Shown here piece by piece: positions 33,861 through 57,968 of a stretch of DNA of 64,000 nt. The translations under genes were made by a program, and so were the position numbers. Below the pieces are notes generated by a model that was not told the DNA's origin, made no database searches, and saw nothing but the letters and a program-made list of their open reading frames with translations. The DNA is from Novosphingobium sp. KA1 (GTDB taxonomy: Bacteria > Pseudomonadota > Alphaproteobacteria > Sphingomonadales > Sphingomonadaceae): NCBI RefSeq assembly GCF_017309955.1, contig NZ_CP021247.1, positions 372,001 to 436,000 of the forward strand, given 5' to 3'. Each line of letters opens with the position of its first letter. The stretch's first letter is position 1.

Positions 33861-34535
33861 ATGAAGCGGATCGATATCTTCCTGGCATGCGAGCTTTCCG
33901 GCGGACTCGCGGCCTTTCGTCATGACGATTTCGACGTCGTGCTGCATCGCTGGCACGACAGCGGAGAGCTGCCGCTGATCGAAGGCGCGCTCTGGGTGTT
34001 CATCGACTGGGTGCTGCCGGAAATGTCCGGCCTCGAACTGTGCCGCCGCCTGCGCGCCGACGGGCTGACGCAGAATGCCCATGTGACGATGGTGCTGGAA
34101 GAGGACAACCAGGAAGACCGCAAGCGCGCGCTGCGCATGGGCGCGGACGACTATATCGTCGGCCCGCTGACCCGCGGCGCCCTGCTCGACCGGGTGCTGG
34201 GCGCCAATATCGGCGAACAGGAAAGCATCGGGCTGCGGGTGCTGGCCCAGGGTGAACTCTCGGTCGACGTCGCCGCCTTCCAGGCGCGCTGGCAGGGCAA
34301 GCCGATCGCGCTGATGCCCAACGAGCTACGCCTGCTGCGTTATTTCATCGAGCACCCCGGCCGCGTGTTCACCCGCACCCAGCTGATCGCCGCGCTCGGC
34401 AAGCAGGAACCGGCGGTGGACGAACGCACCGTGGACGTGTGGATCGGCCGCCTGCGCCGCGCCCTCAAGGGCGTGGGCGCGGGCAACCCGCTGCGCACCG
34501 TGCGCTCGCTGGGGTATGTCTTCGATACGGCCTAG
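33861..34535 (+). CDS. Atypical orphan OmpR-family response regulator
   Basis: A 224-residue protein with a receiver-like domain (about 1-120) and a winged-helix DNA-binding domain (about 130-224: MPNELRLLRYFIEHPGRVFTRTQLIAALG, RTVDVWIGRLRRALK, RTVRSLGYVFD). Asp49 in VFIDWVLPEMSG is at the phosphorylation site, but the N-terminal acidic pair is missing (IDIFLACELSG) and the usual Lys of the KPF motif is Gly (DDYIVGPLTRG). Phosphorylation by a standard kinase is thus doubtful. No kinase gene is adjacent. It is preceded by a triple Pho box. Its TAG stop is completed by the first base of the inserted element at 34535. Confidence 0.85.
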   Translation: MKRIDIFLACELSGGLAAFRHDDFDVVLHRWHDSGELPLIEGALWVFIDWVLPEMSGLELCRRLRADGLTQNAHVTMVLEEDNQEDRKRALRMGADDYIVGPLTRGALLDRVLGANIGEQESIGLRVLAQGELSVDVAAFQARWQGKPIALMPNELRLLRYFIEHPGRVFTRTQLIAALGKQEPAVDERTVDVWIGRLRRALKGVGAGNPLRTVRSLGYVFDTA

Positions 34536-34798
34536 GTCGTAAACGCATAAACGGCACCATCGAGGCGCCCAAATGGCGAACAGCTCGGGCCGAAGTTGCC
34601 GCCGGACGGGCTGGTTGCCCGTCCAAGGCAGCTTCGGTTCGAGATGGAAGCCATTTGGGCGTCCCTGCGGGATTTGCCCAAAATGGCCCAGCGCTGCGTC
34701 GGGAAGTCTTGAAATATCGACATATTCCAGCGCCTTCCCTCCTGCCGCTGAGCCATTTTGCCTCAAACCTCGATGATGCCGTTTATGAGTTTACGGCC
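34535..34798. mobile_element. 264-bp cloverleaf MITE-like element, copy 1
   Basis: Terminal inverted repeats of 31 bases (GGTCGTAAACGCATAAACGG at left, matched with 3 mismatches at right) are flanked by TA on both sides (34533-34534 and 34799-34800). There is no transposase. Inside are two long imperfect hairpins, one closed by CGCCCAAATGGC / GCCATTTGGGCG and one by CAAAATGGC / GCCATTTTG, with a small hairpin TCCC-TGC-GGGA between them: a cloverleaf. It is about 96% identical to the inverted copy at 57705. TA duplication resembles IS630/Tc1-mariner or IS427-type mobilisation. It separates two convergent genes whose stop codons both use TA plus the terminal G of the element. A 74-residue open frame crosses it on the minus strand. 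Confidence 0.85.
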
Positions 34799-35286
34799 TA
34801 GAACTTGTAGCCCAGCCCCACGGCGACCATGTCGGCATCGGGTTCGCCGTCGCCGATCAGCACGTGCTTGTATTCGAGCTTGGCGTAGACGCTTTTGGTG
34901 AGGTCCTGCTCCCAGCCGGTGCTGAGGCCGACCGCGCTGCCGCATTCGCGGCAGTCCTTGGTCTGCCAGTTCGCCGCCGCGTAGAGCTTGGCGCCCGGCA
35001 GCACGCGGGCGCCGACACGGCCGCCCACGCCCCAGACCACGCGGGTATCATCGGCAAGCGTCTTTTCCGCAAGGCCTTCGGCCCCGACGAAGAAACGCTC
35101 GCCCAGATCTACGTCATAGCCCACCGCCGCGCCGGCGACGGCATGGGTATCCTCGCGGTTCCAGATCACGCCGCCGGTGCCTTCGACATAAGCCTCATCG
35201 GCAAGCGCGGGGGTGGCGAAAGTAACGGCGAGGGTAGCGGCGGGCGAAACGAATGCCGCGCAAAGCAGCAGGGGCAGGTGGCGCAT
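34798..35286 (-). CDS. Small outer-membrane beta-barrel protein
   Basis: A 162-residue exported protein with signal peptide (1-29, ending TPALADE) and alternating beta-strand pattern: GGVIWNREDTHAVAGAAVGYDVDLG, RFFVGAEGLAEK, GVGGRVGARVLPGAKLYAAANW, VYAKLEYKHVLIG and the terminal VAVGLGYKF. The last residue is aromatic Phe, as in outer-membrane barrels recognised by BAM. It resembles opacity/OmpA-like eight-strand porins; two cysteines in KDCRECGS may form a loop disulfide. ATG 35286 follows GAGG. Its stop codon overlaps the end of the element at 34535-34798. Confidence 0.75.
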   Translation of the reverse strand: MRHLPLLLCAAFVSPAATLAVTFATPALADEAYVEGTGGVIWNREDTHAVAGAAVGYDVDLGERFFVGAEGLAEKTLADDTRVVWGVGGRVGARVLPGAKLYAAANWQTKDCRECGSAVGLSTGWEQDLTKSVYAKLEYKHVLIGDGEPDADMVAVGLGYKF

Positions 35287-35469
35287 GATCAAACCTCGGA
35301 TAGCCGGTGCGCCGCCCGGAGGAGGTATAGGGCCGGGCAGCGCTGGCGCCGCCTTAGACCTTGCGATTGTGAGATAACATTGCTGATCCCTGCCCGGCAC
35401 TTGCAGTTTTCGGAAGCGGGACGCGGCCGATCGGATCGGGGCCCTGAAATTCGGTCCTAAAACTCCGCC

Positions 35470-36927
35470 CTAGAATTCGGCCCAGTCATCCCCCGAAGCG
35501 GCCGGGCTCAGGGCAAGATTGCCGCTGACCGGCGGCAGCGCCGCAAGGCGCGGCGCCGGGCTGGCCGAGCGGTCGGAGGCACTGCCCCCCGGCACCGAAA
35601 CCGGTAGCGACGACACCGATGGCGACGACGCCGCGCGGCGAGACGAGGCCTTGGCGCCTCCTTTCAGCCGGAAGCGCCCGGTCAGTCCGGAGAGTTGCTC
35701 GGCCTCGGAGGCCAAGCTGCGGGCGGCCGCCGCGGTCTGCTCGACCATGGCGGCGTTCTGCTGGACCATCTGGTCCATGTTGATCACGGCCTTGCCGATG
35801 TCGCCCAGGGTATCGGCCTGCAGTTCCGCGCCCTTGGCGATGGCATCGACCAGTGCGTTCACCTCGGCGATCTTCGTGCCGATGCGCTCCAGCATGCGCC
35901 CGGTCTGCCCGACCAGATCGACCCCCTGGCTCACCTGGGTGGAGGAATTGGTGATGAGCGCGCGGATGTCGCGCGCGGCGTCGGAGGAACGCTGGGCCAG
36001 TGCCCGCACTTCGTTGGCGACAACGGCAAACCCCTTGCCGGCATCGCCCGCGCGCGCTGCCTCGACCCCGGCATTGAGCGCCAGGAGATTGGTCTGGAAG
36101 GCGATACCGTCGATCAGGTCGATGATCTGGTTGATCTCCAGCGAACTCTTCTCGATCGCCGCCATCGCCGTGATGGCACTGCGTACAACCGAGGCACCCT
36201 CGTCGGCATCGCCGTGCGCGGCGGTCACCGCGTTGCGCACGTCGGCCGCGCTGCGGGCAGTCTCGCCGACCATGCCGGTCACATGCTTCATCGAGGCCGT
36301 GGTCTGCTCCAGCGTTGCGGCCTGCAGTTCGGTACGTTCGGCCAGGTCGTCCGAGGCGGCGCGGATCTCCGCCGAGCCCGAGCGCACGCATTCGGCCGAG
36401 GCGACCACTTGCCCCATGCTCCCCTCGAGACCGCCTACGGTGCGGTTGAAACTCGCGCGCAGACCTTCATAGGCCGCGGCGAAAGGCTGGCCGAGCTGGG
36501 TGGTCATGTCGCCCTGCTCGATCGCCGAAAGGCCGCGTTCGAGCCCCTCGACCACGGCCTGCTGTTCGCCCGCGCTGCGCTGGACTTGCGCGGCATTGTC
36601 GCGAAACACCGCCATCGCCTTGGTCATGCGGCCCACGCAGTCGTTGTGGTCGGTGAAGCGGATGGGACTGGAAAGATCGCCGCCCGCCAGCGCCTACATG
36701 CGCACCACGGTCTCGACATAAGGGTCGCAGATCAGCCTGCCGCTGATCCGGACCGTCACCAGCCCGCCCGCCAGCGCCAGAACCGCGCAGCCGATTCCGG
36801 GGATCATCCAGCCGAATGCGGCAAGGGCAGCCCCAAGCAGGCCCACCAGCCCCCAGAGCCCGTGAAGATAGAGCAGCGCCCGGAACTTGGCGCGGATCGG
36901 AGCCTCTTTCTCGAACCAATCGAACAT
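35470..36927 (-). pseudogene. Methyl-accepting chemotaxis protein gene interrupted by an in-frame TAG
   Basis: The frame from ATG 36927 (MFDWFEKEAPIRAKF) encodes a short N-terminal region with two membrane helices (about residues 18-55) and the start of a HAMP domain, but codon 78 (36696-36694) is TAG. The same frame then continues without interruption: [27 protein letters not shown] completes the HAMP, followed by the MCP signalling hairpin ([49 protein letters not shown]) and a C-terminal DWAEF like CheR tether pentapeptides. Related HAMP domains have Glu at this place (MEALAAGDL-like), so GAG-to-TAG is the simplest change. The second part alone could start at GTG 36636, lacking membrane anchor. 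Sequencing error or amber readthrough are alternatives. No che genes are nearby. Confidence 0.85.
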
Positions 36928-37153
36928 GCCTGCCCTTCCCGAAGCCAGTCCCTGGATCCTGACTTGCGCCGGATCTGGCGCGCAGCGTGCCAAAGGCGAT
37001 CTGCAAGAGAGCGATTTATCCGGTATTTGCAAAGGATTGGCAGACCCCATGCTAGGGGCAATCATGTAGTGGAAAGCGCCTTGGAGCGCGCAAACGCCTA
37101 ACCGGCATCGCCTCCCCGGCCTGTCCGCCAGGCGCACCAACCGCGCCGGGCAC

Positions 37154-37180
37154 AAAAAAAGGCAGCGTTTCCGCTGCCTT
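37154..37180 (-). terminator. Terminator of ssb
   Basis: On the minus strand GGCAGCG, GAAA, CGCTGCC is followed by seven T. A textbook intrinsic terminator 31 bases after the ssb stop. The 283-base gap 36928-37210 holds nothing else I can support. Confidence 0.93.
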
Positions 37181-37210
37181 CTTGCTTCGATACGGTCCGG
37201 CAAAAGCCGA

Positions 37211-37813
37211 TCAGAACGGGATGTCGTCGTCGAGGTCGTCGCCGAAACCGCCGCCCGAGGACGAAGGCGTGCGGCCCCATTCGTCGCCGCCGCCCGAAGA
37301 GCCACCCGACGAACCGCCCGAACGGCCCCATTCGTTGCCGCCTGACGAACCGCCGCCCGAACGGCCACCGCCGCCATAGCCGCCGCCCGAGGAACCACCC
37401 GAGGAACCGCCTTCGTTCCAGCCGCCGCCGGAACCGCCACGGGCACCGCCGCCGCCGCCCTGCGCGCCGTCCAGCATCGTCAGCACGCCGCCGACGCCGC
37501 CAACCGAGACTTCGGTGGTGTAGCGGTCGTTACCGTTCTGGTCCTGCCACTTGCGCGTGCGCAGCTGGCCTTCGATGTAGATCTTCGAACCCTTGCGCAG
37601 GAACCGCTCGACCACGCCGACCAGACCTTCGCTCTGGATCACCACCGAGTGCCACTCGGTGCGTTCCTTGCGCTCGCCGGTGGCGCGGTCCTTCCAGCTT
37701 TCCGAGGTCGCGATGCGCAGATTGGCGATGCGGCCGCCGTTCTGGAACGACTTCACCTCGGGATCGGCACCCAGGTTGCCGATCAGAATGACCTTGTTGA
37801 CGCTGCCTGCCAT
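37211..37813 (-). CDS. ssb: Single-stranded DNA-binding protein
   Basis: A 200-residue SSB. The OB-fold (residues 1-115, [52 protein letters not shown]) binds single-stranded DNA as a tetramer in replication, repair and recombination. A Gly-Ser-rich linker (about 117-188) leads to the acidic tip DDLDDDIPF, which recruits partner proteins. The linker is long and very low in complexity, with several NEWGR/DEWGR repeats. It has its own terminator. Upstream, 100 bases away, is a 262-bp inserted element that separates it from feoB. Confidence 0.97.
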
Positions 37814-37913
37814 GATGGAATCGCTTTCTTCTGAATCTTGGCGAACGGGGTAGCGAATGGGGGCCGGCGATGCGAGTCTGAAGCCCCCGGTTTTCTACAG
37901 GCCCGGTTTGCTA

Positions 37914-38174
37914 GGCGGCGTGGACAAATTCCTCGAGGTCACGACCGGAGGCAAAACCCGTCAATTCAAGGAGATGAGGCGCAGGACTATGTCGATAGTT
38001 CAAGCCGAACCGACGCCGAAGTGGCGGGTTTTGGTCCGGCCCCTTCGGGGTAGCCCCCATGTGCCCCCCGGCAGCGTTGCACGGCCTTGAAAGAGAACCA
38101 CTCTTCCCGCGTCCGCGCGCCTCGCCGGGGGCACATGGGGGCTATCGTGACCTCGAGGAATTTGTCCACGCCGC

Positions 38175-38175
<1 letters not shown>
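37914..38175. mobile_element. 262-bp cloverleaf MITE-like element, diverged type
   Basis: Terminal inverted repeats of 31 bases (GGCGGCGTGGACAAATTCC at left, perfectly matched at right up to TCACGA), flanked by TA (37912-37913 and 38176-38177). No transposase. Inside: a first long hairpin closed by CAAAACCCG / CGGGTTTTG with apex ACTATGTCGATAGT, then CCCCTTCGGGG, then a second hairpin with perfect stem TAGCCCCCATGTGCCCCC and its complement. This is the same architecture and size as the elements at 34535 and 57705, with a related first arm, but unrelated terminal repeats and second arm. It abuts the feoB stop codon, which is TA plus the first base of the element. Confidence 0.85.
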
Positions 38176-40015
<1,840 letters not shown>

Positions 40016-40019
<4 letters not shown>

Positions 40020-40333
40020 GCGGCCACTCCTGAACTGGTGGGCGTACCGGCAGCGACGGCGGCCTCATCGGTTTCGGGTTCGGCCTGGACCTTGTCGAGC
40101 GGCAGCACGGTCATCGCGCGGGCGTGGGCGCGGCGCACGGCCACGATCATGCGGCCGATGGCAATGGCGACCGGGTCACGGCCGACAAAGATCCCGCGAT
40201 GCGCGATCGAGACCCGCGCGCCCTCCTCTAGCCCGAGCGCGCGCAGGCGGCGCGCCTCCTCTTCAACGAGGGCATTCCAGTCCACCGAAACGATGCGGGC
40301 GTACTGGCCGATAGGAAGCTGGTCGAGAGTCAT
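40016..40333 (-). CDS. feoA: Ferrous iron transport protein A
   Basis: A 105-residue FeoA, a small SH3-like cytoplasmic protein required for FeoB function. The core (about 1-75) reads MTLDQLPIGQYARIVSV, LRRLRALGLEEGARVSIAHRG and DPVAIAIGRMIVAVRR, the family pattern. The tail from about residue 80 is extra, Thr-Ala-rich and probably disordered. It is the first gene of the feoAB operon. Upstream (about 40365-40385) is an imperfect palindrome ATTGCGAACAAGTTGCAAT on the minus strand that could be an iron-regulator site, but it does not match the classical Fur box well. Confidence 0.92.
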
Positions 40334-40473
40334 GCGGGCTGCGCTGCCAGATTACCGATTCAATTGCAACTTGTTCGCAATAGCCCGCTTAACCGGACAT
40401 GTCTGTCGCTATTCCTGCAATCGAAAAGGCAGGAAACAGCGAAACCCGGCAGCACAAGGCCACCGCCAGCGGC

Positions 40474-41139
40474 TCAGCGCGCCGGATAGCGCAGGCGCCC
40501 CATCAGCCGCACCAGGCTGATCCGCTCCTCGCTCGGGCGCAGCCATTGCGCCTTGGCCTTCTCGAAACGCATGATGCCCTCGATCCGGCGGTCGAGGAAC
40601 GCGCGGGTCTCGGCCTTGGGGCCGACCGCATCCTCGCTGGTGTCGCTGGCAAAGACCTTGAGCGTGGCGGCATAGATCGCGCCGAGGATCGCCCGCTTGG
40701 TATAGTGGTTGTAATCGGTGGCGGTATCGCCGGCGAGACGCCACATGGCGTCCGCGCTGTGCCAACCCAGGCGCGTGGCGGCGAGCACGTTGCGCGGCAT
40801 CGCCATGACCGCCAGCGCCCGGCTGAGCGCTTCCTCGCGTCCGGCCACGGCATCGAGCCGGGCCATGACGAGACGGCGGATCCGCTCGCGAATCGGCAGT
40901 CCGGCCAGCGAGGCCGCCGGGACGCTGCGCGCCATCTCGGCATCGACATGGGCAATCCACGCCGAGATCATCGCCATCTGGCCTTCCGCGAAGGCATAAC
41001 GGGCCAGTTCGGGATCGACCCCGGCGAGGCGCGCGGCCTCGTCCACCGCCTTCACGCTCCAGCCGTCGAATGCCGCGGCATCGGCGATGGCCGGGGCAAG
41101 CTGGCGCCGCAGCGCCTCCAGCGTCTGAGGTTCTTCCAT
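40474..41139 (-). CDS. COQ9 family ubiquinone biosynthesis protein
   Basis: A 221-residue COQ9-like protein, distantly related to TetR fold but without DNA-binding role. The helix-rich N-terminus is followed by the conserved C-terminal block WHSADAMWRLAGDTATDYNHYTKRAILGAIYAATLKVFASD, the family hallmark (trp-his-ser..., D-x-x-HYTKR). In eukaryotes COQ9 binds lipids and supports COQ7; alphaproteobacterial homologues are presumed to support quinone hydroxylation. I chose ATG 41139 (MEEPQTLEAL). It is a single gene, with ankyrin gene upstream at 41207 in the same direction. Confidence 0.9.
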   Translation of the reverse strand: MEEPQTLEALRRQLAPAIADAAAFDGWSVKAVDEAARLAGVDPELARYAFAEGQMAMISAWIAHVDAEMARSVPAASLAGLPIRERIRRLVMARLDAVAGREEALSRALAVMAMPRNVLAATRLGWHSADAMWRLAGDTATDYNHYTKRAILGAIYAATLKVFASDTSEDAVGPKAETRAFLDRRIEGIMRFEKAKAQWLRPSEERISLVRLMGRLRYPAR

Positions 41140-41206
41140 CACTCTGTTCCTTCGCGCCGGCACCATCCGGCCGGCCAGTATTCCGCCACGGCGTGGTGCC
41201 CCACGG

Positions 41207-41848
41207 TTACATCACGGGTCCGTAAACCGCCTTGGGCTTGCTGCCCTTGGCGCCGAACTGCTCGATCACTTGCGCCAGCTGGCTGGTCTTGCCCGCCTCG
41301 ACATTGGCATACTCGCGCGCGCTGCGACCCGAGTTGTCGGCGCGATCGGCGCTGGCACCGGCCTGGAGCAGGGTCTTGACCATGTCGACGTCCTTGCGGT
41401 GCACCGCGAAGATCAACGGCGTCTCGCCCGCGTCGTTGGTCGGATCGGGCTGGGCCTTGGCATCGAGCAGCTGTGCCACGCCTTCGCGCCAGCCGAGGCT
41501 GACGGCCAGCTGCAGCGGGGTGCGGCCATGGTCGTCCGACGCATTCACGTTGGCGCCCTTGCCGATGAGGTAGGCCAGCCAGGTGAGGTCGCGGCGCTGG
41601 GTGACGATGTGCAGGCCGGTCTCGCCGGTCGTCACGTCCTTGGCGTTGACGATCTGGCTGTTCTCCATCAGCGCCTTCTCGACCTTTTCGCCTTCCTTCT
41701 TCTTGACCGATTCGAGGAACTTGTAGCCTTCCGAGTAATCGGCATGGGCAGGCGAGGCGAGCGTCATGCCCGCCGCGAGTGCAGCCAGCCCCGCAGCGAG
41801 GATCCGGCGCGAAAACCCTGTGGCGTTCCCGGAGATCGTCTTCGACAC
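41207..41848 (-). CDS. Secreted ankyrin-repeat protein
   Basis: A 213-residue exported protein. Signal peptide about 1-36 (ILAAGLAALAAGMTLASPAHAD). Three to four ankyrin repeats follow from about residue 65: TGETGLHIVTQRRDLTWLAYLIGKGANVNASD, HGRTPLQLAVSLGWREGVAQLLDAKAQPDPTND, AGETPLIFAVHRKDVDMVKTLLQAGASADRAD, SGRSAREYANVE. A basic linker EKVEKALME precedes them. Ankyrin repeats bind proteins; no partner is known. It is 68 bases upstream of the COQ9 gene and could be in the same unit. Confidence 0.85.
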   Translation of the reverse strand: MSKTISGNATGFSRRILAAGLAALAAGMTLASPAHADYSEGYKFLESVKKKEGEKVEKALMENSQIVNAKDVTTGETGLHIVTQRRDLTWLAYLIGKGANVNASDDHGRTPLQLAVSLGWREGVAQLLDAKAQPDPTNDAGETPLIFAVHRKDVDMVKTLLQAGASADRADNSGRSAREYANVEAGKTSQLAQVIEQFGAKGSKPKAVYGPVM

Positions 41849-41964
41849 GTTTGATTATCCTTCCAGACTGGGTCCACGGCGCCGTCCGGGCGGCCCGTCC
41901 GTCTCCGACGCCAGCCCCGATGCGCCGTCAAATCGCACCCTTGCACGCGCGGCTCTAGCAGAGC

Positions 41965-42606: not shown

Positions 42607-42625
42607 GCGTAGAATTCGCGCCATC

Positions 42626-43141: not shown

Positions 43142-43143
43142 GC

Positions 43144-43869: not shown

Positions 43870-43891
43870 CGTTCTGTCTTTTGTTTGATGG

Positions 43892-43960: not shown

Positions 43961-43992
43961 CAAACAGCACTTAAACGCCTACATAGCGGCCC

Positions 43993-46090: not shown

Positions 46091-46170
46091 GATTCGCGCG
46101 GAGGGTGGAAGAGCCGCGCTCGACCGCACCGATGCGCCCAAACCGCCACTAATCTTGCACCATCATCCTC

Positions 46171-46250
46171 GTCGCCCCCGCGAAGGCGGGGGCCCCGCTT
46201 CTGCCACGCCCGCAAGGACAAGCGGGATCCCCGCCTTCGCGGGGATGACG
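46171..46250. repeat. REP-like GC-rich double palindrome
   Basis: CCCCCGCGAAGGCGGGGG and its near complement CCCCGCCTTCGCGGGG, separated by about 35 bases with CCCGCTT / AAGCGGG between, form either two hairpins or one long stem. This is a sequence type repeated widely in proteobacterial genomes. It may serve as the convergent terminator between ribE and the GNAT gene. The 231-base gap 46091-46321 shows nothing else. Confidence 0.7.
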
Positions 46251-48234: not shown

Positions 48235-48248
48235 TCGGCGCCACGTCG

Positions 48249-48345: not shown

Positions 48346-48353
48346 AGCCCGGA

Positions 48354-49558: not shown

Positions 49559-49766
49559 TGCGGCTTTCGGTTTCAGCCTTTTCCCTTCATACAGACAAGC
49601 AAGAGCAAACCCCTCGCGGGGAACGCAAAAGCCATGTCTGCGCACGTGTGTTGCTGAACCGTTTCCAATAGTTTCGTGCTGGCAATACTTCGTTACAGAG
49701 CCGTACGAAGCAGGACACGGAGCGTCCTCACATTCAGGTCCATTGCCAGTCTATGGAGACCTGAAA

Positions 49767-50033
49767 GTGACCAAGTTCCCCGTTCTCGCCGCTATCGCCT
49801 CGCTTTCGCTCGCCCTGCCCGGCGCCGCGATCGCCAACGAGACCATCGCCCACCTCAAGGGCCATCCCGCCGTTTCCGCCCCCAAGGCCAAGCGTACCGC
49901 CGCCGCGCGCGTGGCCTGCCACCCCGAACCGTCGAAGGGCCGCGACTGCCGCCACCGCGCGCTGCAGGCCGACGCCAAGGCAGCCGCGCAGAGCGATGGC
50001 ACCCAGCTCGCCGCCAACGAGGGCGCGCGCTGA
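49767..50033 (+). CDS. Hypothetical small secreted protein
   Basis: An 88-residue protein with a signal peptide (about 1-22, FPVLAAIASLSLALPGAAIAN) and a short basic mature part with two cysteines (VACHPEPSKGRDC). Not recognised. GTG 49767 (MTKFPVLA) is chosen since GGAG lies 8 bases upstream; the frame upstream offers no better start. Its stop overlaps the next gene (TGATG), so the two form a pair. Confidence 0.65.
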   Translation: MTKFPVLAAIASLSLALPGAAIANETIAHLKGHPAVSAPKAKRTAAARVACHPEPSKGRDCRHRALQADAKAAAQSDGTQLAANEGAR

Positions 50034-50653
50034 TGCCGCTACGCGCGGGCATGGCCGGCGTGATCGGCATTCTCGGCCTTCCCGCGCTCCTGCTCGCGGG
50101 TGAAGCGGCGGCGCGCGAGCTCGCGCCCGCCGCAAGCCCGGCCGCGGTCATCGACGACCCGGCCCTGCCGCATGTCCTTGCCACCACCCACAAGGCAGGC
50201 AAGCGCGGCCATGGCCGGGCGGCGGCGGGCAGCGTCGAGATCGGCCCCGCCCATCTGCGCGCCCATGTCGACCGCGAAAGCGGCGCGGTGCGCTGGCAGC
50301 TCTGGCAGGAAGTGACCCATGCCGGGCTGGCCCGCGACATGACCGGCCTTGCCCTCGGCATCGACGGCGACGCCGCCCGAACGAGCGCGGCACTGCCGCT
50401 CGCCCAGGTCGAGCGCCAGGCGGAGCGCTGCCCCACGCAGGACGCGCTGGTCACCGCCTGCACTACCCGTGTCCATTATGCCTTCGACGTGCCGGCCGGC
50501 ACCGTCGCGCGCATGGCCGCCAGCCCCTCGCCGACCAGGCTTGCCTTGCACGACACGATCGGCCGCACGTTCCAAGCCTCGATGCATCCGGACGAAGCCG
50601 CCGGAATTTCCGACGCGGTTGCCGCACTGCAGCCGCCGCAAGGAACCGACTAA
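50033..50653 (+). CDS. Hypothetical secreted protein
   Basis: A 206-residue protein with N-terminal signal sequence (about 1-28, GVIGILGLPALLLAGEAAAREL) and no recognised domain. The mature part contains AHLRAHVDRESGAVRWQLWQEVTHAGLA and a cysteine pair in ERCPTQDALVTACTTRVHYAFDVPAG; alternating strands suggest a beta-rich fold. It is translationally coupled to the upstream small protein by TGATG and lies about 140 bases before the two-component genes, though a shared role is only a guess. Confidence 0.65.
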   Translation: MPLRAGMAGVIGILGLPALLLAGEAAARELAPAASPAAVIDDPALPHVLATTHKAGKRGHGRAAAGSVEIGPAHLRAHVDRESGAVRWQLWQEVTHAGLARDMTGLALGIDGDAARTSAALPLAQVERQAERCPTQDALVTACTTRVHYAFDVPAGTVARMAASPSPTRLALHDTIGRTFQASMHPDEAAGISDAVAALQPPQGTD

Positions 50654-50790
50654 AGGGATGGGAAACGCAAATCGCTCCGTTTCCCACTACCCTGGATTTG
50701 CCAATCGCCGCCCTCCCCCCTACATCAGCTGACGACGAGATCATGATCCAGAGTGTCGCCCCCGTTTATCGCCACCTCGACGAAGCACCC

Positions 50791-51528
50791 ATGTCCACGC
50801 CCACAATCCTGCTCGTCGAGGACGACGGCCCCCTCCGCACCCTGACCGCGCGCGCCTTGCGCCAGAGCGGGTTCAACGTGCTCACCGCCGCCACCGGCGC
50901 GGAAATGTGGGTGACGCTGCGCGAGGGGCCGGTCAGCCTGGTCGTGCTCGACGTGATGCTGCCGGGCACCAGCGGCTTCGACCTGTTCCGCCGCCTGCGC
51001 CGCGAAAGCGATGTGCCGGTGATCTTCATCAGCGCCCGCGGCAGCGAGGAAGACCGCGTACTCGGCCTTGAACTGGGCGCGGACGACTATCTCGCCAAGC
51101 CCTTCAGCACCCGCGAACTGGCCGCGCGTGTCAGCGCCGTGCTGCGCCGGGGCGGCAACAGCGCCGGGCCGGACACCGCCGCGGCCGACGGCGTGGCCGA
51201 TGGCCGCATGCCCGACGCGATCCTGTTCGACGGCTGGACGCTGTCGATGGCGCGCCGCGAGCTGCGCTCGCCGACCGGCGCGATGGTGGACCTCACCGGT
51301 GCCGAGTTCGACCTGCTGGCCACTTTCCTCGCCTACCCCCAGCGCGTGCTGGGCCGCGAGCGGCTGATCGAGCTTTCGCGCGCACGCCTGGGTGACAGTT
51401 CCGACCGCAGCGTCGACGTGCTGGTCAGCCGCCTGCGCCGCAAGCTTCAGGGCGAAGGTGCCGAGCCGCCGATCGTCACCGTGCGCGGCGTCGGCTACAT
51501 GTTCAAGGCCGAGGTCACGCGCGCCTGA
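50791..51528 (+). CDS. OmpR family response regulator
   Basis: A 245-residue response regulator. Receiver domain (about 1-115): acid pair in LLVEDDGPLRTLT, phosphoacceptor Asp54 in VVLDVMLPGTSG, Lys103 in DYLAKPFS. DNA-binding winged helix (about 145-245): DLTGAEFDLLATFLAYPQRVLGRERLIELS, RSVDVLVSRLRRKLQ and VTVRGVGYMFK. ATG 50791 (MSTPTILLVEDD) is the usual family start; ATG 50743 in frame would add 16 residues. Its stop overlaps the kinase start (TGATG), so it forms a classical pair. Target genes are unknown. Confidence 0.93.
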   Translation: MSTPTILLVEDDGPLRTLTARALRQSGFNVLTAATGAEMWVTLREGPVSLVVLDVMLPGTSGFDLFRRLRRESDVPVIFISARGSEEDRVLGLELGADDYLAKPFSTRELAARVSAVLRRGGNSAGPDTAAADGVADGRMPDAILFDGWTLSMARRELRSPTGAMVDLTGAEFDLLATFLAYPQRVLGRERLIELSRARLGDSSDRSVDVLVSRLRRKLQGEGAEPPIVTVRGVGYMFKAEVTRA

Positions 51529-52853
51529 TGCAGACACGCCGGTTCCGCCTGTTCCGGCGTTTTGGCCTCATCGAGCGGCTGATCGCCGTCCTGCTGCTGG
51601 TCATCCTCATCGATTTCATTGCCAATACGGTGCTGTTCGAGCGGGCCAGCTCGTTCGAACTGCGCCGCGACGATGCCGAGCGCATTGCCGAGAACCTGGT
51701 GCTGGCCAGCCGCGCGATCGAGCGTGCGTCGCTGGCCGACCGCCCCGGCGTGACCGGGGCCCTTTCCACCAAACGCTTCGTGCTCGAATGGTCGCCCCCC
51801 TCGCAGCGCCATCGCGGCTCGATCGGACTGGCCAACTTGCGCGCGCAAGTGGTCGAGATCCAGCCGGAACTCGCCCATGCCGACCTCGAACTCCATCTCG
51901 AAACCATTCCCGGGCGCGGCAATATCGGCGGCTCGTTGCGCCTGCCGGACAATTCGCTGCTGTCCTTCCGCACCCACGCCCGTGCCGCCTGGAGCCTGAC
52001 CGCCGGGCGCCTCGCCAGCCTGCTGGTGCCGGCGCTGCTGCTGGTCTCGCTGGCCTGGCTGCTGCTGCGCGCCGCGCTCGACCCGCTGCGCTCGCTGGTG
52101 CGCGCCACCCGCAATCTCGGCGCCGGGCCACCCAAGCCGCTGCCCGAACACGGGCCTGAGGAAATGCGCGAGCTGATCCGCGCGATGAACGAGATGCAGG
52201 AGCGCATCCACCAGTCGCTTCAGGACCGCACCCACACGATGCTGGCGATCGGCCACGACCTCAAGACCCCGCTCGCCCGCATGCGGCTGCGCCTCGACGA
52301 CGGCGAGGTCGATCCCGAAGTGCGCGAGGGGCTCGACCACGACATCGAGGAAATGCGGATGCTGCTCGATTCGATCCAGGCCTATGTCGATACCGGCGGC
52401 GCCAATATCCCGGCCGAACGCATCGACCTTGCGGTGATGGCCGAAACGCTGGTCGACACGGCGGCGGATCGCGGCGCGAATGCGACCTATTCGGGACTGT
52501 CGAGCCTCGAGATCATGGCCCGCCCGGTCTCGATCCGACGGGCGCTGTCGAACCTGATCGAGAATGCCCTGCACTATGGCGGCAATGTGCGCGTCTCGCT
52601 GCGGCGCGACGGCGGCGCCGCGGAAATCACGATCGACGACGACGGCCCCGGCATTCCCGAAGACCGCATCACCGACGCCCTCCAGCCTTTCGTCCGCCTC
52701 GACAGTTCGCGCGCGCGGGATACTGCCGGCATGGGCCTCGGCCTGCCAATCGTTCGCAAGGCAGTACGGCTGGAAGGTGGCACCCTCGACTTGCGCAACC
52801 GCGCCGAGGGCGGGCTGCGCGCTACGATCAGGCTTCCGCTGGAGCCGGCCTGA
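51528..52853 (+). CDS. Sensor histidine kinase
   Basis: A 441-residue membrane histidine kinase. Two membrane helices (about 15-35 and 158-182) flank a periplasmic sensor of about 120 residues with no recognised ligand domain; HAMP follows (about 183-235, PLRSLVRATRNLG). The dimerisation box has His243 in LAIGHDLKTPLARMRL. The ATPase domain has N box NLIENALHYGG, G1 DDDGPGIP and G2 GMGLGLPIV. It is coupled to the response regulator upstream, which it presumably phosphorylates. The layout is that of EnvZ-like kinases. Confidence 0.93.
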   Translation: MQTRRFRLFRRFGLIERLIAVLLLVILIDFIANTVLFERASSFELRRDDAERIAENLVLASRAIERASLADRPGVTGALSTKRFVLEWSPPSQRHRGSIGLANLRAQVVEIQPELAHADLELHLETIPGRGNIGGSLRLPDNSLLSFRTHARAAWSLTAGRLASLLVPALLLVSLAWLLLRAALDPLRSLVRATRNLGAGPPKPLPEHGPEEMRELIRAMNEMQERIHQSLQDRTHTMLAIGHDLKTPLARMRLRLDDGEVDPEVREGLDHDIEEMRMLLDSIQAYVDTGGANIPAERIDLAVMAETLVDTAADRGANATYSGLSSLEIMARPVSIRRALSNLIENALHYGGNVRVSLRRDGGAAEITIDDDGPGIPEDRITDALQPFVRLDSSRARDTAGMGLGLPIVRKAVRLEGGTLDLRNRAEGGLRATIRLPLEPA

Positions 52854-52978
52854 AACTACCGACGCGATACTATTGGCTAGCGCTGTCGACCGCCAAGAGG
52901 ATCATGGTACAATCCTCATGCTGGTCAACGCGATAACATGCGGCAACGATTGCATCAGCGCAGTTCGGGGGAGGCCTG

Positions 52979-53410
52979 ATGCAGGTTCGTTTTGTTGTAT
53001 CGGCGATGACGGCTTTACTGCTCCTCCTGTCACTCGATCAGGTCAATGCAAATCCGTCCGCTCCAACCACCGGCGCCGACATATGTCGGCCTCCAGCCTC
53101 GAACTGGAGCCCGCAGGGCAGCGAATCCGGCGAACTCCAGTGGTACAATGCCCTTGAGGCTGCGCCGGATCGCCTGCTGTGGAACGACACCCCGATCAGC
53201 GACAAGGAATTGGCAAAGCGGTTGTCACAGGCTTCCCGCCATCCGTTGGTTCTCATAATCGCACCCTCACTGCCATGCGACCAAGTGATGGCGCTGCGCA
53301 GCGCGATCAGCCGGAAAATGAAGTGCGGCCGGGAGCGGATCTGCGTCGAGTATTCGGCCAACGCGTGGCAAGCGACCAGACCACCAACGCAACCCGCCAC
53401 GAAGAAATAG
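52979..53410 (+). CDS. Hypothetical secreted protein, ExbD-like domain
   Basis: A 143-residue protein with signal peptide (about 1-24, ALLLLLSLDQVNAN). The mature region LLWNDTPISDKELAKRLSQAS, HPLVLIIAPSLPCDQVMALRSAISRKMKC resembles the small periplasmic domain of ExbD/TolR biopolymer transport proteins (W-N-x-x-P-I-S strand, then a helix-strand-helix), but has two cysteines and no membrane anchor. Function unknown. It starts at ATG 52979 after GGGGG. Confidence 0.65.
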   Translation: MQVRFVVSAMTALLLLLSLDQVNANPSAPTTGADICRPPASNWSPQGSESGELQWYNALEAAPDRLLWNDTPISDKELAKRLSQASRHPLVLIIAPSLPCDQVMALRSAISRKMKCGRERICVEYSANAWQATRPPTQPATKK

Positions 53411-53470
53411 GCTGCACGGCCAAGGGCTGCGCCGGTTACCGGGACAAACCAAATCTCAGGCAAGACGGGC

Positions 53471-53989
53471 TCAATCTTGCACGGGCGCGATGGAGCCTGA
53501 TGTAAAGGATCGCCGCCAGCCGTCGCCTGCGACAATACGCCCGTTCTCGAAAGTGAACTTGACCGGAAAGACATGGGCCTGCCGGCTATCGAAAAATTCG
53601 ACGGTCAGTTCCTGTCTCGCGCAAGGGTCCTGCACGGGCGTCGGAATATAGTCCCAGTTCAGGAAGCGAAACGTATCGGCACGCATTTCCAGCGCCATCC
53701 GCCGGATCGCCGGAACGCCCTCGCCAAGCGGAACCCTCACATCGCCCCCTCCCAGGGAAAACGCCGCCTGCTCCCCCAGTAGGCGCTGCAACCTCGCGTT
53801 CGTTGCAGCGCTTTGCCTGCCGCCCGCGAGATTCATGGCCTCAACCGCTCTTTGTCCGAGCACATGCCAAAGATCGCCGATGTACGTTATCGATGGCAGA
53901 TCACATACCGGTCGCGCCGCTGCCGCCGCAAACGACGGCAGCGAAACCATGCAAGCCCAAAAGGCCAACGGGAAGGACAGTCTTCTCAT
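53471..53989 (-). CDS. Hypothetical secreted protein
   Basis: A 172-residue protein with signal peptide (about 1-26, PLAFWACMVSLPSFAAAA) and no recognised domain. It contains CDLPSITYIGDLWHVLGQRAVEAMN, LEMRADTFRFLNWDYIPTPVQDPCARQELTVEF and a C-terminal FENGRIVAGDGWRRS. The two cysteines may form a disulfide. ATG 53989 (MRRLSFP) is chosen because a signal peptide begins there. It converges with the gene at 52979. Confidence 0.6.
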   Translation of the reverse strand: MRRLSFPLAFWACMVSLPSFAAAAARPVCDLPSITYIGDLWHVLGQRAVEAMNLAGGRQSAATNARLQRLLGEQAAFSLGGGDVRVPLGEGVPAIRRMALEMRADTFRFLNWDYIPTPVQDPCARQELTVEFFDSRQAHVFPVKFTFENGRIVAGDGWRRSFTSGSIAPVQD

Positions 53990-54222
53990 CCGCTTACCAT
54001 GACCAGCGCCCGTCGTTTCGGCAATCCGCTCCTGTCCGGCCAACGCGGACTACCTGCTCTCCCCATGCGGCAGAAACACGCCTGCTGCGGCGCAGCAACA
54101 TTTCCTGACAAACGCGCACGATGGCCGAAAACGAGCGTCCATACCTTTCCTTCAAGCCCCGCGCCGCTCTCCCATCCCCCTTCGGGCGAGCGCGGGGCAC
54201 CCTGTTTGGAAAGGTGACGAGA

Positions 54223-54912
54223 GTGAACGAACTGATTGGACGCGTCTTCCACTTCGAGAAGACCATCTTCCCCGCCAGCAGCGAACTGTTCGGCAAGCTG
54301 ACGTCCGAAGGCCAGGAGCCCAAGGCGCTGATGATCTCCTGCGCCGATTCGCGCATCGTGCCCGAGCAGATCATGCAGGCCCAGCCCGGCGACCTCTTCG
54401 TCTGCCGCAACGCCGGCAACATCGTGCCCCCCTATTCGACCCAGAACGGCGGCGTGACCTCGACCGTGGAATATGCCGTCGCCGCTCTCGGCGTGCGCGA
54501 CATCATCGTCTGCGGCCACTCGGACTGCGGCGCGATGAAGGCGCTCAGCAACCCGGTCGGCCTCGAAGCCATGCCGAACGTCGCCGCATGGCTCAAGCAC
54601 GGCGCCGCTGCCGAGCACATCGTCAGCACCTGCCACAGCGACCTCGACGGCAAGGAGCGCGTGCGCGCCATCAGCCTCGAGAACATCATCGCCCAGATCG
54701 CCCACTTGCGCACCCACCCCTCGGTCGCCGCCGCCATCGCCCGCGGTGAAATGACCCTGCACGGCTGGTTCGTGGACATCCACGCAGGCCAGGTGCTCGG
54801 CCTCGACGGCGACACCGGCCAGTTCGTGCCGCTGCGCGAAGACAGCGCCCTGCCGGTGGCCCTCGCCGCCCGCACCCGCTTCGCCACCGAATATGCCGAG
54901 GCCGCAGAGTGA
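54223..54912 (+). CDS. Beta-class carbonic anhydrase
   Basis: A 229-residue beta carbonic anhydrase that interconverts CO2 and bicarbonate. Zinc ligands Cys40 (MISCADSR), His99 and Cys102 (CGHSDCG) are present with the Asp42-Arg44 dyad. GTG 54223 (VNELIGRVFHFEK) is preferred because GGAAAGG lies upstream and the protein then has family length; an upstream ATG (54121) would add a Pro-rich leader of 34 residues. Its stop overlaps the start of a SulP transporter (GTGA), so the two work together in bicarbonate supply. Confidence 0.93.
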   Translation: MNELIGRVFHFEKTIFPASSELFGKLTSEGQEPKALMISCADSRIVPEQIMQAQPGDLFVCRNAGNIVPPYSTQNGGVTSTVEYAVAALGVRDIIVCGHSDCGAMKALSNPVGLEAMPNVAAWLKHGAAAEHIVSTCHSDLDGKERVRAISLENIIAQIAHLRTHPSVAAAIARGEMTLHGWFVDIHAGQVLGLDGDTGQFVPLREDSALPVALAARTRFATEYAEAAE

Positions 54913-56438
54913 ACTCGGTATCCACCGAAAGAAGTGGGCTTTTTGCCCACTTCGGCCGGGACTTCACCGCGTCGATCGTGGTGTTCCTGGTCGCGATGCC
55001 GCTCTGCATGGGCATCGCCATCGCCTCCGGCGTGCCGCCTGAAAAGGGCCTCGTCACCGGCATCATCGGCGGTCTGGTCGTCGGCCTTCTGGCCGGCTCC
55101 CCGCTTCAGGTCAGCGGCCCCGCCGCTGGCCTTGCCGTCATTGTCTTCGAGTTCGTGCGCGAGCATGGCCTTGAAGCGCTCGGCCCCGTGCTGCTGCTGG
55201 CGGGCGTGCTGCAGATCGTTGCCGGCGTGCTGCGCCTCGGCGGCCTGTTCCGCGCGATCAGCCCGGCGGTGGTCCACGGCATGCTCGCCGGTATCGGCGC
55301 ACTGATCGTGATCGGCCAGTTCCACATCCTCTTCGACCAGAAGCCGATGTCGAGCGGGCTCGAAAACATGGCGATGATGCCCGCACGCATCCTCGGCCTC
55401 GATCCCACCAACATCGCCTCCACCGAACTGGCGCTGATGCTCGGCCTGCTGACCATCGGCGTGATGATCGGCTGGGAAAAGCTGCGCCCGAAGAACCTCG
55501 GCCTCGTGCCCGGTGCGCTGCTCGGCGTGATGGCGGCAACGCTCGTCGCCTGGGGCCTGGGCCTCGACGTGGCGCGCATCGCCGTGCCCGAATCGATCGG
55601 CGCCGCCTTCGCGCTGCCGACCTCCACCGCCTGGTTCGCCCCGCTCGCGCAGCCCGCGCTGCTTGTCGCCGCGCTTGCCATCGCCTTCATCGCCAGCGCC
55701 GAGACGCTGCTCTCGGCCGCCGCGGTCGACCGCATGCATGACGGCGTGCGCACGCACTACGACAAGGAACTGCGCGCACAGGGCATCGGCAACCTGCTCT
55801 GCGGCATTTTCGGCGCCCTGCCGATGACCGGCGTGATCGTGCGCAGCTCGGCCAACGTCCAGGCCGGTGCCAAGACCCGTCTCTCGACGATCCTGCACGG
55901 CGTCTGGATCCTCGGCTTCATCGCCCTGCTGCCCTGGCTGCTGCGCGAAGTGCCGATGGCGGCGCTGGGCGGCGTGCTGGTCGTGACCGGCTGGAAGCTC
56001 GTGAACCTCAGCCACGTGCGTCACCTGTTCCACGCCTACGGCGCGTTCCCCGCCGTGATCTGGGCGGCGACTTTCGTGCTGGTGGTAACGACCGACCTGC
56101 TCACCGGCGTGCTGGCGGGCCTCGCCCTGACGCTGGTGGAACTGCTGCCCCATGCCAGGAACCTGCGCCTCAAGGTGCAGGAGCACGACAACGACGAGCA
56201 CACCCGCCTCGAACTGGGCGGCGGCGCCACGTTCCTGGGCCTCACCCGCCTCAACGCGGTGCTGGAGAAGCAGCCCCACCACAAGCCGGTCCACCTCGAC
56301 CTGCACAAGGTGAAGGTGATGGATCACACCACCGCGGAAACCATCCGCGAATGGCTCGGTCGCCGCCGCCAGAGCGGGCAGACCGATACCGTGACCGGCC
56401 CGGAAGCCATCCTGCGCCCGTTGCCGATCGCAGCCTGA
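54909..56438 (+). CDS. SulP family anion (probably bicarbonate) transporter
   Basis: A 509-residue SulP transporter. About 11-12 membrane helices run to residue 420: GRDFTASIVVFLVAMPLCMGIAIASG, GLVVGLLAGSPLQVSGPAAGLAVIV, QGIGNLLCGIFGALPMTGVIVRSSANVQAGAKTR are conserved segments. A C-terminal STAS-like domain follows (about 425-495, HHKPVHLDLHKVKVMDHTTAE). Coupling to carbonic anhydrase through a 4-base overlap favours a BicA-like bicarbonate or sodium-coupled role over sulfate, but this is inference. It starts with GTG 54909. A strong terminator follows. Confidence 0.9.
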   Translation: MNSVSTERSGLFAHFGRDFTASIVVFLVAMPLCMGIAIASGVPPEKGLVTGIIGGLVVGLLAGSPLQVSGPAAGLAVIVFEFVREHGLEALGPVLLLAGVLQIVAGVLRLGGLFRAISPAVVHGMLAGIGALIVIGQFHILFDQKPMSSGLENMAMMPARILGLDPTNIASTELALMLGLLTIGVMIGWEKLRPKNLGLVPGALLGVMAATLVAWGLGLDVARIAVPESIGAAFALPTSTAWFAPLAQPALLVAALAIAFIASAETLLSAAAVDRMHDGVRTHYDKELRAQGIGNLLCGIFGALPMTGVIVRSSANVQAGAKTRLSTILHGVWILGFIALLPWLLREVPMAALGGVLVVTGWKLVNLSHVRHLFHAYGAFPAVIWAATFVLVVTTDLLTGVLAGLALTLVELLPHARNLRLKVQEHDNDEHTRLELGGGATFLGLTRLNAVLEKQPHHKPVHLDLHKVKVMDHTTAETIREWLGRRRQSGQTDTVTGPEAILRPLPIAA

Positions 56439-56495
56439 TGGCCTGACCATCTGACCAGACAGAGCGGCGAACACCCTCACGTTCGCCTTTCCCCT

Positions 56496-56535
56496 GCCGG
56501 GCGGCCCTTCCCATTCGGGCCGCCCGGCTTTTCTT
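56496..56535 (+). terminator. Terminator after the carbonic anhydrase/SulP unit
   Basis: GCCGGGCGGCCC (56496-56507) pairs with GGGCCGCCCGGC (56517-56528), followed by TTTTCTTT. A strong intrinsic terminator 58 bases after the stop. The gap 56439-56734 holds no further gene. Confidence 0.9.
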
Positions 56536-56734
56536 TATGGAACGCACCCGCATGCGGCGCCTGATCGCCCCTGCGGACGCTGGAAACATTTTGTCACAGG
56601 CTGGCAAGCAAGCGGACAAGCCCGATCCGTAAGCAGGAGGTTCCGGCAGAAATGGGCCCGCCACGCACGCAGGGCACGACTGCCGGACGCAGGAAGGAAC
56701 GCGCAACAAATCGAAACATGAGGGCGTTCCGATT

Positions 56735-57577
56735 ATGAATTTCCGTCTTGCCACCGGCCTCCTGGGCCTTGCTACCGCCATGCTTGCAACGCCTGCGATG
56801 GCGCAGGAAGAAGCACCGGGACCGATCACCGTCTCGGGCAGCGTGGGGCTGACCACCGACTACCGTTTCCGCGGCGTCTCGCAGACCGACAAGGAAATGG
56901 CCGTGCAAGGCGGCGTGACCGTCACCCATGAAAGCGGCTTCTACGTCGCCACCTGGGCCTCCAACCTTTCCGGCTGGGGCACCTTCGGCGGCTCGAACAT
57001 GGAACTCGACCTTGTCGGCGGCTACTCGACCGAGATCAGCAGCGGCCTCAAGCTCGACGTCGGCCTGACCTGGTACATGTATCCGGGCGGCGCCAGCGAC
57101 ACCGACTTCGCCGAACCCTACGTCAAGCTTTCGGGCGACCTCGGCCCGGCCAGCGTGCTGGTCGGCGTGGCCTATGCGCCCAAGCAGCAGGCGCTCGGCA
57201 AAGTCTACGCCAGCGGCGCGGACTATCTCGACGGTATCGGCAACCCCGGCGCCAAGACCGACAACTTCTACATGTGGAGCGACGCCAGCGCCGGCATCCC
57301 CAACACTCCCGTCACCGTGAAGGGCCACATCGGCTACTCGAACGGCAACTCGGGCCTTGGGCCCAACGGCACCAGCGTCGCGCCGACCGGCGAATATGTC
57401 GACTGGCTGCTCGGCGCCGACCTGGCGCTCGGCCCGGTGACGCTGGGCGTCGCTTATGTCGACACCGACATCTCGAAGTCGGAATCGGCCTACCTGCAGC
57501 CGAACTTCTCCTCGACCAAGAACGGCAAGACGATCGCCGGTTCGACCGTGCTGTTCTCGCTCACCGCCGGTTTCTGA
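56735..57577 (+). CDS. TorF family putative porin
   Basis: A 280-residue outer-membrane beta-barrel of the TorF/TIGR02001 type. Signal peptide 1-23 (ending PAMAQ). The family opening ITVSGSVGLTTDYRFRGVSQTDKEMAVQGGVTVTHESGFYVATWASN is present, followed by EISSGLKLDVGLTWYMYPG, TFGGSNMELDLVGGYS, and the terminal FSLTAGF with final Phe. Substrate unknown; the family is widespread in proteobacteria and often of unassigned function. It starts at ATG 56735; GATT sits upstream. Confidence 0.9.
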   Translation: MNFRLATGLLGLATAMLATPAMAQEEAPGPITVSGSVGLTTDYRFRGVSQTDKEMAVQGGVTVTHESGFYVATWASNLSGWGTFGGSNMELDLVGGYSTEISSGLKLDVGLTWYMYPGGASDTDFAEPYVKLSGDLGPASVLVGVAYAPKQQALGKVYASGADYLDGIGNPGAKTDNFYMWSDASAGIPNTPVTVKGHIGYSNGNSGLGPNGTSVAPTGEYVDWLLGADLALGPVTLGVAYVDTDISKSESAYLQPNFSSTKNGKTIAGSTVLFSLTAGF

Positions 57578-57590
57578 TCGATCCCGCAGC

Positions 57591-57618
57591 GACACCGCCC
57601 CGACGGGCGGTGTCGTTC
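57591..57618 (+). terminator. Hairpin after the TorF porin
   Basis: Perfect 10-base stem GACACCGCCC / GGGCGGTGTC with loop CGAC, 14 bases after the stop. The trailing T tract is weak (GTTC), so termination may be partial. Confidence 0.65.
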
Positions 57619-57704
57619 ACAGGCAAGCGGAAGGCCCCCGCGCCCTCCTGCCCCCTGCCGGCGCTTCCTTCAGCAACCGATGGCATTTGCCCGGTGAGCG
57701 CCTA

Positions 57705-57968
57705 GGTCGTAAACTCATAAACGGCACCATCGAGGTTTGAGGCAAAATGGCTCAGCGTCAGGAGGGAAGGCGCTGGAATATGTCGATATTTCAAGACTTC
57801 CCGACGCAGCGCTGGGCCATTTTGGTCAAACCCCGAAGGGGCGCCCAAATGGCTTCCATCTCGAACCGAAGCTGCCTTGGACGGGCAACCAGCCCGCCCG
57901 GCGGCAACTTCGGCCCGAGCTGTTCGCCATTTGGGCGCCTCGATGGCGGCGTTTATGAGTTTACGACC
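57705..57968. mobile_element. 264-bp cloverleaf MITE-like element, copy 2 (inverted)
   Basis: Terminal repeats of 31 bases (GGTCGTAAACTCATAAACGG at left, 2 mismatches to the right end) are flanked by TA (57703-57704 and 57969-57970). Length is exactly 264, as in the copy at 34535, which it matches at about 96% in opposite orientation (11 differences by my count). The central hairpin is CCCCGAAGGGG, where copy 1 has the compensated TCCC/GGGA pair. A 74-residue frame crosses it on the plus strand. It lies between the porin hairpin and the phosphatase start, 13 bases from the latter. The 404-base gap 57578-57981 is otherwise empty. Confidence 0.88.

Follow-up and report, generated by a model that had tools for sequence, protein, structure and literature searches.

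What moves the short palindromic elements that recur in a 64,000-nucleotide stretch of the Novosphingobium sp. KA1 genome (NCBI RefSeq contig NZ_CP021247.1, positions 372,001 to 436,000; the window), and which part of them is conserved? A sequence-only reading had described three transposase-less elements of nearly equal length, with inverted ends and TA flanks, at about 34.5, 37.9 and 57.7 kb. All three are present, and their terminal inverted repeats span 33–34 nt and are 91–100% complementary. The 34.5-kb copy is inverted relative to the 57.7-kb copy, and the identity of these two, put at about 96%, is 96% over 267 bases. The predicted cloverleaf of a terminal stem, two hairpin arms and a small hairpin between them was recovered for the most part: with RNA parameters, the minimum free energy (MFE) structures of 5/5 sequences folded form the terminal stem as well as the two arms, while the small hairpin is present in 4/5 and missing from the 57.7-kb copy, owing to competition from adjacent bases. 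Both of the compensating pair changes that had been noted are seen between window copies, one in the small hairpin (CCCC-GAA-GGGG versus TCCC-GCA-GGGA, same strand) and one at the arm-1 apex (A:T versus C:G). We find that the ends of these elements are exchanged around a conserved structured module, here called M, which is spread across Proteobacteria.

Copies, target sites and exchangeable ends

The family is considerably larger than the three copies first recognized. BLAST and the covariance model R1 identified 39 full-length or nearly full-length loci in the KA1 genome (5.78 Mb, three contigs) and 11 further loci that are truncated, interrupted or diverged, about 50 altogether, with a few loose end fragments besides. 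The elements are ~265 bp in size, have terminal repeats of 33–34 bp, lack a transposase gene and show three outer end types, A (TAGGYCGTAAACTCATAAAC), B (TAGGCGGCGTGGACA) and C (TAGGCTCAGGACCCATAAATC); type B is composed of two subtypes, B and B', distinct in their inner stems. One element is interrupted by an insertion sequence (IS) with ends TAGGTCCTGTTGACAAAGTT that sits within arm 1 (L063, G000:C2:1232833-1234278). An optional insert of ~20 bp (about AAGCGAARCTCACCGTAAGGTAAA), positioned between arm 1 and the small hairpin in L021, L027, L063, L108, L137 and L267 from different genomes, could fold as a further mini-hairpin.

Insertion duplicates TA at the 37.9-kb site, where N. clariflavum 164 (G456) has an empty site with a single TA (GGTTTGC-TA-AAGCCC) and KA1 has the element with TA on both sides; the base after the TA differs between the two species. 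The 34.5-kb site holds an A element in KA1 and a B' element in the conspecific genome of Sphingomonas sp. IC081 (G445), inserted at the same TA between matching flanks (L278), a difference that either reinsertion at a hot spot or replacement in situ could produce. No further exact empty site came from plasmid records, in which the flanks were absent or too diverged, from RL4, where the match was inexact, or from the repeated flank at L003 and L037, which had no copy among the sequences compared. A pyrimidine precedes the left TA in 33/34 of the KA1 elements scored (35 given) and a purine follows the right TA in 33/34, with C and G both 19/34.

Within the genus, elements with a transposase open reading frame (ORF) carry ends of the same types. 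These include L253 (851 bp) and L254 (844 bp), with left end TAGGGTCAGGACCTATTAA (type C/D); L255–L257 in the KA1 genome, with ends TAGGSTCAGGACCCATTGA (type C/D); L258–L260, with the A-like right end TAGGCCGTAGACTCATAAAC; and L353 and L354, with B ends and ~390 bases after the left end that are dissimilar between the two. All four transposase pieces scanned (L253, L257, L258 and L353) match NF033580 of the IS5 family at 148–175 bits, above the cut-off, and three N-terminal pieces match DUF4096. The full-length ISs with the same ends that the sequence-only reading had envisaged therefore exist as IS5-family elements for three end types, with the correspondence for type A limited to the right end; IS5 matching covers types A, B and C/D, and distant elements show many end types without a matched IS. 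IS630 was set aside as the mover, without a search for it, since KA1's three end types matched IS5-family elements. The right ends of L353/L354 (...KFVHAA*) and L258–L260 (...RVYESTA*) also encode C-terminal residues of the transposase, which places the end sequence under double constraint. Given their short length, terminal inverted repeats, lack of a transposase gene, TA duplication at one clean site and ~50 interspersed copies, the elements are highly likely to be miniature inverted-repeat transposable elements (MITEs) with IS5-family-type ends.

As the sequence-only reading had supposed, ends have been exchanged in evolution, and the exchange is of a pair around a near-identical core. L102 and L122, found in one genome, are identical at 204/208 core positions but at only 15/30 and 16/30 positions of their ends, and within each element both ends stay mutually complementary. 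Mixed forms are also observed: L272 has a left end of type A and a D-like right end, and the hybrid at C2:1614922-1615084 joins the first half of a B element to the second half of an A element.

Module M, its folding strand and its spread

M is a hairpin of ~57 nt with the consensus A-GG(A/C)G ... GCAGG - hairpin - CAAG ... C(G/A)ACGC. The second arm resembles the first, once it is read on the opposite strand, in the B-type family and in several distant ones. The second arm of the 37.9-kb element, which had been taken as unrelated, is instead the same module on the opposite strand (65.0 bits, versus 58.9 bits for the first arm, with R2, a covariance model of the module alone). R2 was built from alignment A4, which holds 33 chosen arms of both kinds from the 52 arms of A3; because the 19 left out comprise A-like second arms, arms with a doubled GA motif, the near-duplicate L016 and the odd first arms L101 and L127, R2 describes chosen modules. 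Both 37.9-kb arms sat in the training set, and independent support comes from second arms of untrained elements outside the order, four in the same class and three in other classes (L338, 42.3 bits; L341, 41.3; L328, 38.7; L342, 38.6; L329, 33.2; L349, 30.5; L340, 30.2). The A-type second arm matches the inner part of M only (19.2 and 21.0 bits). Elements with two matches always show + and then − (27/27 among 80 sources at E 0.05; 11/11 in KA1), and all 57 R2 matches in KA1 (E ≤0.1; 150 of 2133 first-look candidates scored) fall inside these elements by coordinates. Ten IS-bearing loci (L253–L256, L258–L260, L263, L353 and L354) yielded no M, and the single match in L257 belongs to a MITE beside the IS, not to the IS itself. 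Short B-ended elements without M also occur (L360, L361 and L362), so B ends serve other passengers or MITEs too.

Covariation over the whole element and within M supports the earlier proposal of selection on a folded strand. Among 23 KA1 elements, double-side changes occupy 289 cells versus 105.4 after shuffling, and the covariation score is 0.346 versus 0.134 shuffled and 0.076–0.109 in slid controls; one measure goes the other way, with 73 further pair types versus 78.9 shuffled. For 78 distinct modules in a structure-fitted alignment, 91.8% of cells are paired versus 59.9% shuffled, double changes occupy 392 versus 112.9 cells, and the score is 0.794 versus 0.203 shuffled and 0.090–0.159 slid (0.791 versus 0.212 shuffled in the MAFFT alignment A4), though the shuffled and slid controls do not fully remove relatedness. 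Conserved mismatches belong to the structure: columns 8/53 are A·G in 49 and C·A in 30 of 79 modules with no other combination, a perfect non-Watson-Crick covariation; the adjacent columns 7/54 are G·A in 69, A·A in 8 and A·C in 2; AA lies opposite three bases; and a G·U pair is present in 54/79. We consider it highly likely that the structure of M is under selection on single strands. In L113, L114, L116, L117 and L126 one arm has a variant module, in which a second GGAG/CGAC-like tandem G·A motif is stacked inside the first.

The two arms prefer opposite strands. In MFE calculations on the 69-nt arm centre with RNA parameters, arm 1 is more stable on the + strand in 83/85 elements and arm 2 on the − strand in 74/77. 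Departures from pairing at Watson-Crick-majority pairs of 56 elements, read on the + strand, show 48 A·C (14 pairs) versus 7 G·T (7 pairs) in arm 2 and are more even in the terminal stem (26 A·C, 17 G·T); in arm 1, besides, one pair is G·T in 56/56 and another T·G in 38. Along M, Watson-Crick-majority pairs show 48 G·U versus 13 A·C. Related sequences in these counts are not independent, though the set covers very different families. Most simply, the counts mean that the constraint on each strand acts in the arm lying 5' on that strand. The small hairpin, called from folds in 85 of 104 elements (19 without a call), has a GNA triloop in 35 and the complement TNC in 37, together 72/85 where 8/64 triloops would be expected by chance, with other loops in 13/85; one strand thus presents C(UNCG)G and the other C(GNA)G.

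The search beyond close relatives that had been suggested found copies far outside them, across Proteobacteria. R1 matched 23 of 61 genomes including KA1 (18/36 other members of the genus and 4/24 from the rest of the order), and 7 of 385 across the class, KA1 included. The arm-1 apex pattern occurs in at least 120 stretches of named genome contigs; the 80 matches listed are mostly from sphingomonads, with one Bacteroidales and one gammaproteobacterial metagenome-assembled genome. R2 at E 1e-4 matched 93/396 genomes and 29/84 genera in the order, and 59/398 genomes across the phylum (KA1, 6 of the same family, 12 of the same class and 40 of other classes); its counts per genome are lower bounds (at most 14 candidates scored in each), and matches near the cut-off were only partly checked. 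At all 20 loci read outside the order, 8 in the same class and 12 in other classes (L327, the same as L326, and L332 and L334, at contig ends, being left out of the set), the ends are complementary at 17/20 positions or more, which is the script's cut-off. The MFE folds comprise the terminal stem, two arms and small hairpin in 14, lack the small hairpin in 3 (L328, L330 and L346), are one-arm forms in 2 (L331 and L343) and show a broken second arm in L335. The A element had no match among the phage records searched.

Table 1. Parts of the three elements in the window (positions counted from the first base of the window; scores in bits are from R2)
Feature	Position	Strand	Remark
A-type element + flanking CTAG, 34.5 kb	34532..34801	- (arm 1 first on - strand)	R1 match G000:C1:406533-406800:-
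Terminal inverted repeat, one side, 34.5 kb	34532..34565		its TA+G completes the response-regulator stop codon (ORF end 34535)
Terminal inverted repeat, other side, 34.5 kb	34768..34801		completes stop codon of - strand ORF 34798-35400 (outer-membrane beta-barrel domain)
Module M, arm 1, 34.5 kb	34692..34747	-	65.8 bits
Small hairpin TCCC-TGC-GGGA, 34.5 kb	34662..34672	unassigned	triloop reads GCA on the opposite strand
Arm 2, inner part of M only, 34.5 kb	34594..34633	+	19.2 bits, E 0.022
B-type element + flanking CTAG, 37.9 kb	37911..38178	+	TA duplication versus empty site in another species
Left terminal inverted repeat, 37.9 kb	37911..37944		100% complementary to 38145-38178
Right terminal inverted repeat, 37.9 kb	38145..38178		completes stop codon of FeoB ORF 38175-40019 (-)
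Module M, arm 1, 37.9 kb	37965..38020	+	58.9 bits
Small hairpin CCCC-TTC-GGGG, 37.9 kb	38040..38050
Module M, arm 2, 37.9 kb	38070..38126	-	65.0 bits; opposite strand to arm 1
A-type element + flanking TA, 57.7 kb	57703..57970	+
Left terminal inverted repeat, 57.7 kb	57703..57735		94% complementary to 57938-57970
Right terminal inverted repeat, 57.7 kb	57938..57970
Module M, arm 1, 57.7 kb	57756..57811	+	66.4 bits
Small hairpin CCCC-GAA-GGGG, 57.7 kb	57831..57841		absent from the MFE fold of this copy
Arm 2, inner part of M only, 57.7 kb	57870..57909	-	21.0 bits, E 0.008

Elsewhere in the window, a manganese (yybP-ykoY) riboswitch is positioned at 28400-28532 (50.2 bits).

Possible roles of the module

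To assign gene context, a home-made gene caller was trained on 10 ORFs of the window. Two convergent genes, encoding a response regulator and a beta-barrel protein, have their stop codons completed by the 34.5-kb element, and feoB, upstream of ssb, has its stop codon completed by the 37.9-kb element. Of the 41 KA1 loci, 19 have a stop codon that overlaps an element end; by context, the 41 comprise 16 convergent, 14 tandem, 2 divergent and 9 unresolved loci. One-arm elements in tandem contexts carry M in the sense orientation in 6 cases and antisense in 1 (L150 and L406 counted as one locus), which is suggestive only.

The reading that we favour, and hold to be probable, is that these are IS5-mobilised MITEs and that the module they carry is structured, single-stranded and probably RNA, and can serve in either insertion orientation. 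The elements would be moved in trans by IS5-family DDE transposases and inserted at the TA of YTAR (often CTAG), often at stop codons. Each would consist of two exchangeable parts, a 33–34-bp terminal stem, of which the outer ~20 bp resembles IS5 ends, and a core in which two inverted hairpin arms flank a small stable hairpin, M being the first arm and, in many families, the second too. Flanking transcripts may enter the element from either side, and the first arm made would be the arm that folds on that strand. The inverted arms make folding independent of insertion orientation. A transcript from either side would carry its first arm in the sense that folds, in keeping with RNA synthesis from 5' to 3'. 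RNA is somewhat favoured over DNA as the acting molecule. M would probably let transcripts tolerate the insertion, through a protected or processed 3' end or through antitermination, and by lowering the cost of insertion could explain why M rather than the ends persists. After one end had been swapped by recombination, copying within the palindrome may bring the other into agreement with it. More tentatively, M could be an unrecognised Proteobacterial structured RNA on selfish DNA, which makes insertion in either orientation tolerable and persists through changes of its ends that suit them to whichever IS5 transposase is present in the host.

Several observations weigh against this reading. 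The gene caller scored the window's own convergent site as tandem, and the 3' bias weakens in a further 44 loci with two arms (stop overlap in 15/44; contexts of 9 convergent, 14 tandem, 6 divergent and 15 incomplete), with 7 convergent, 19 tandem, 3 divergent and 13 unresolved among 42 other loci. The 6:1 sense bias of one-arm elements is small, the others being 6 convergent, 2 divergent and 4 incomplete with one duplicate removed. A single exact empty site was found, and no left end was recognised in the A-like ISs L258–L260. The module models come from chosen arms, with 19/52 rows omitted (mainly A-like second arms and variants), and full M is present on both arms in just 13/64 sources (E 1e-4). 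In arm 1, the departures at Watson-Crick-majority pairs are 18 A·C versus 12 G·T, and 13 of the 18 A·C come from one doubtful column. Finally, DNA parameters give the same strand asymmetry as RNA parameters (83/85 for arm 1 and 75/77 for arm 2).

This last result also favours the alternative that M acts as single-stranded DNA (ssDNA), its hairpins forming in replication or transposition and serving as binding sites for the transposase or for a host factor, with the inverted pair rendering both strands competent. Hairpins of repetitive extragenic palindromic (REP) sequences are thought to be bound by REP-associated tyrosine transposases (RAYTs), which provides an analogy, and the GNA or TNC loop of the small hairpin counts in its favour too, as GNA triloops are unusually stable in DNA. 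We nevertheless regard an ssDNA role as rather unlikely: M is constant while the ends vary among IS5 types, ten IS-bearing loci are without M and the L257 match belongs to the adjacent MITE, and in the IS5 family the ends and the TA duplication indicate a DDE transposase working on double strands.

The elements might alternatively be bidirectional transcription terminators or 3'-end stabilisers useful to the host, a role suggested by the many KA1 copies that coincide exactly with stop codons and separate convergent genes. The CTAG target preference alone would put insertions at TAG stops, and terminator-like sites are about as frequent as in shuffles: 34400-38400 has 3 versus 2.6 shuffled, just one of the three falling inside an element (38014-38026, within arm 1), and the 57.7-kb element has none. 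Together with the occupancy of the 34.5-kb site, which varies between strains of one species, these results make such a host function improbable. It is more improbable still that M has no function and that paired changes arose by copying between palindrome arms (quasipalindrome correction, a known process) during ordinary MITE spread, since, although correction would account for the two ends changing in concert and for the long near-perfect outer stems, it should erase the conserved mismatches (G·A by A·G or C·A, G·U in 54/79, AA versus three bases), and it sits poorly with the perfect A·G/C·A covariation over 79 modules, the opposite strand preference of the two arms and the retention of M across the phylum within differing stems.

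Relation to known elements

The sequence-only reading knew of no description of this architecture, and we likewise found none in the literature searched, which covers subscription journals thinly and so is weak evidence of absence; the window scan returned no Rfam family for the elements at gathering score. At a loose threshold two elements matched only eukaryotic-type Rfam families, at chance level and far below gathering scores.

Among bacterial MITEs, QMITE1/2, Chunjie, NEMIS, ERIC and Nezha share the short length, lack of a transposase gene, terminal repeats, target duplication and stable folds (PMC10969869, PMC5896051 and PMC3733652); Chunjie-1, for example, is 235 bp and has 37 further copies (PMC10969869). 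As described there, they are families of a single species or group, in contrast to the one core module found here with many ends, phylum-wide spread, covariation and strand preference. REPINs and GTAG-REPs with RAYTs share two inverted hairpin units within a larger fold and a mostly intergenic location 3' of genes, but have units of 20–40 bp tagged with GTAG and presumed tyrosine transposases (PMC3733652), whereas here the modules are ~57 nt and associated with IS5-type ends and TA duplication; GTAG falls within the first or last 8 nt of just 2/79 modules. CGTC-REPs are likewise frequent in alphaproteobacteria, form inverted dimers, lie 3' of genes and have no known transposase according to the same source, which gives them an 8–9-bp stem, a 4–5-nt loop, a CCA-like tail and an unpaired CGTC tag. 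The hairpin of M is longer and has two conserved internal loops, and the 79-module alignment shows neither the tag, the stem nor the tail of that description (PMC3733652). A pair of inverted palindromes at window 46170-46250 (CGTCGCCCCCGCGAAGGCGGGGG ... CCCCGCCTTCGCGGGGATGACG) does resemble a CGTC-REP head-to-head dimer as described in PMC3733652, and it is not of the M family.

Integron attC sites are defined by boxes of the form RYYYAAC ... GTTRRRY. Such boxes are present in 0/79 modules. With IS5-family ISs of the NF033580 type (DUF4096 and DDE_Tnp_1) the elements share the outer ~20 bp of the ends; they differ from them in having no transposase gene, and the ten IS loci searched have no M.

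MITEs are usually viewed as ISs that have decayed and whose interiors are passive. In this family it is the interior that is conserved over the phylum and the ends that can be replaced. If the favoured reading is true, the family would make it possible to test how selfish DNA benefits from RNA (or ssDNA) structure, and it would account for a class of Proteobacterial intergenic palindromes, with a covariance model for annotating them.

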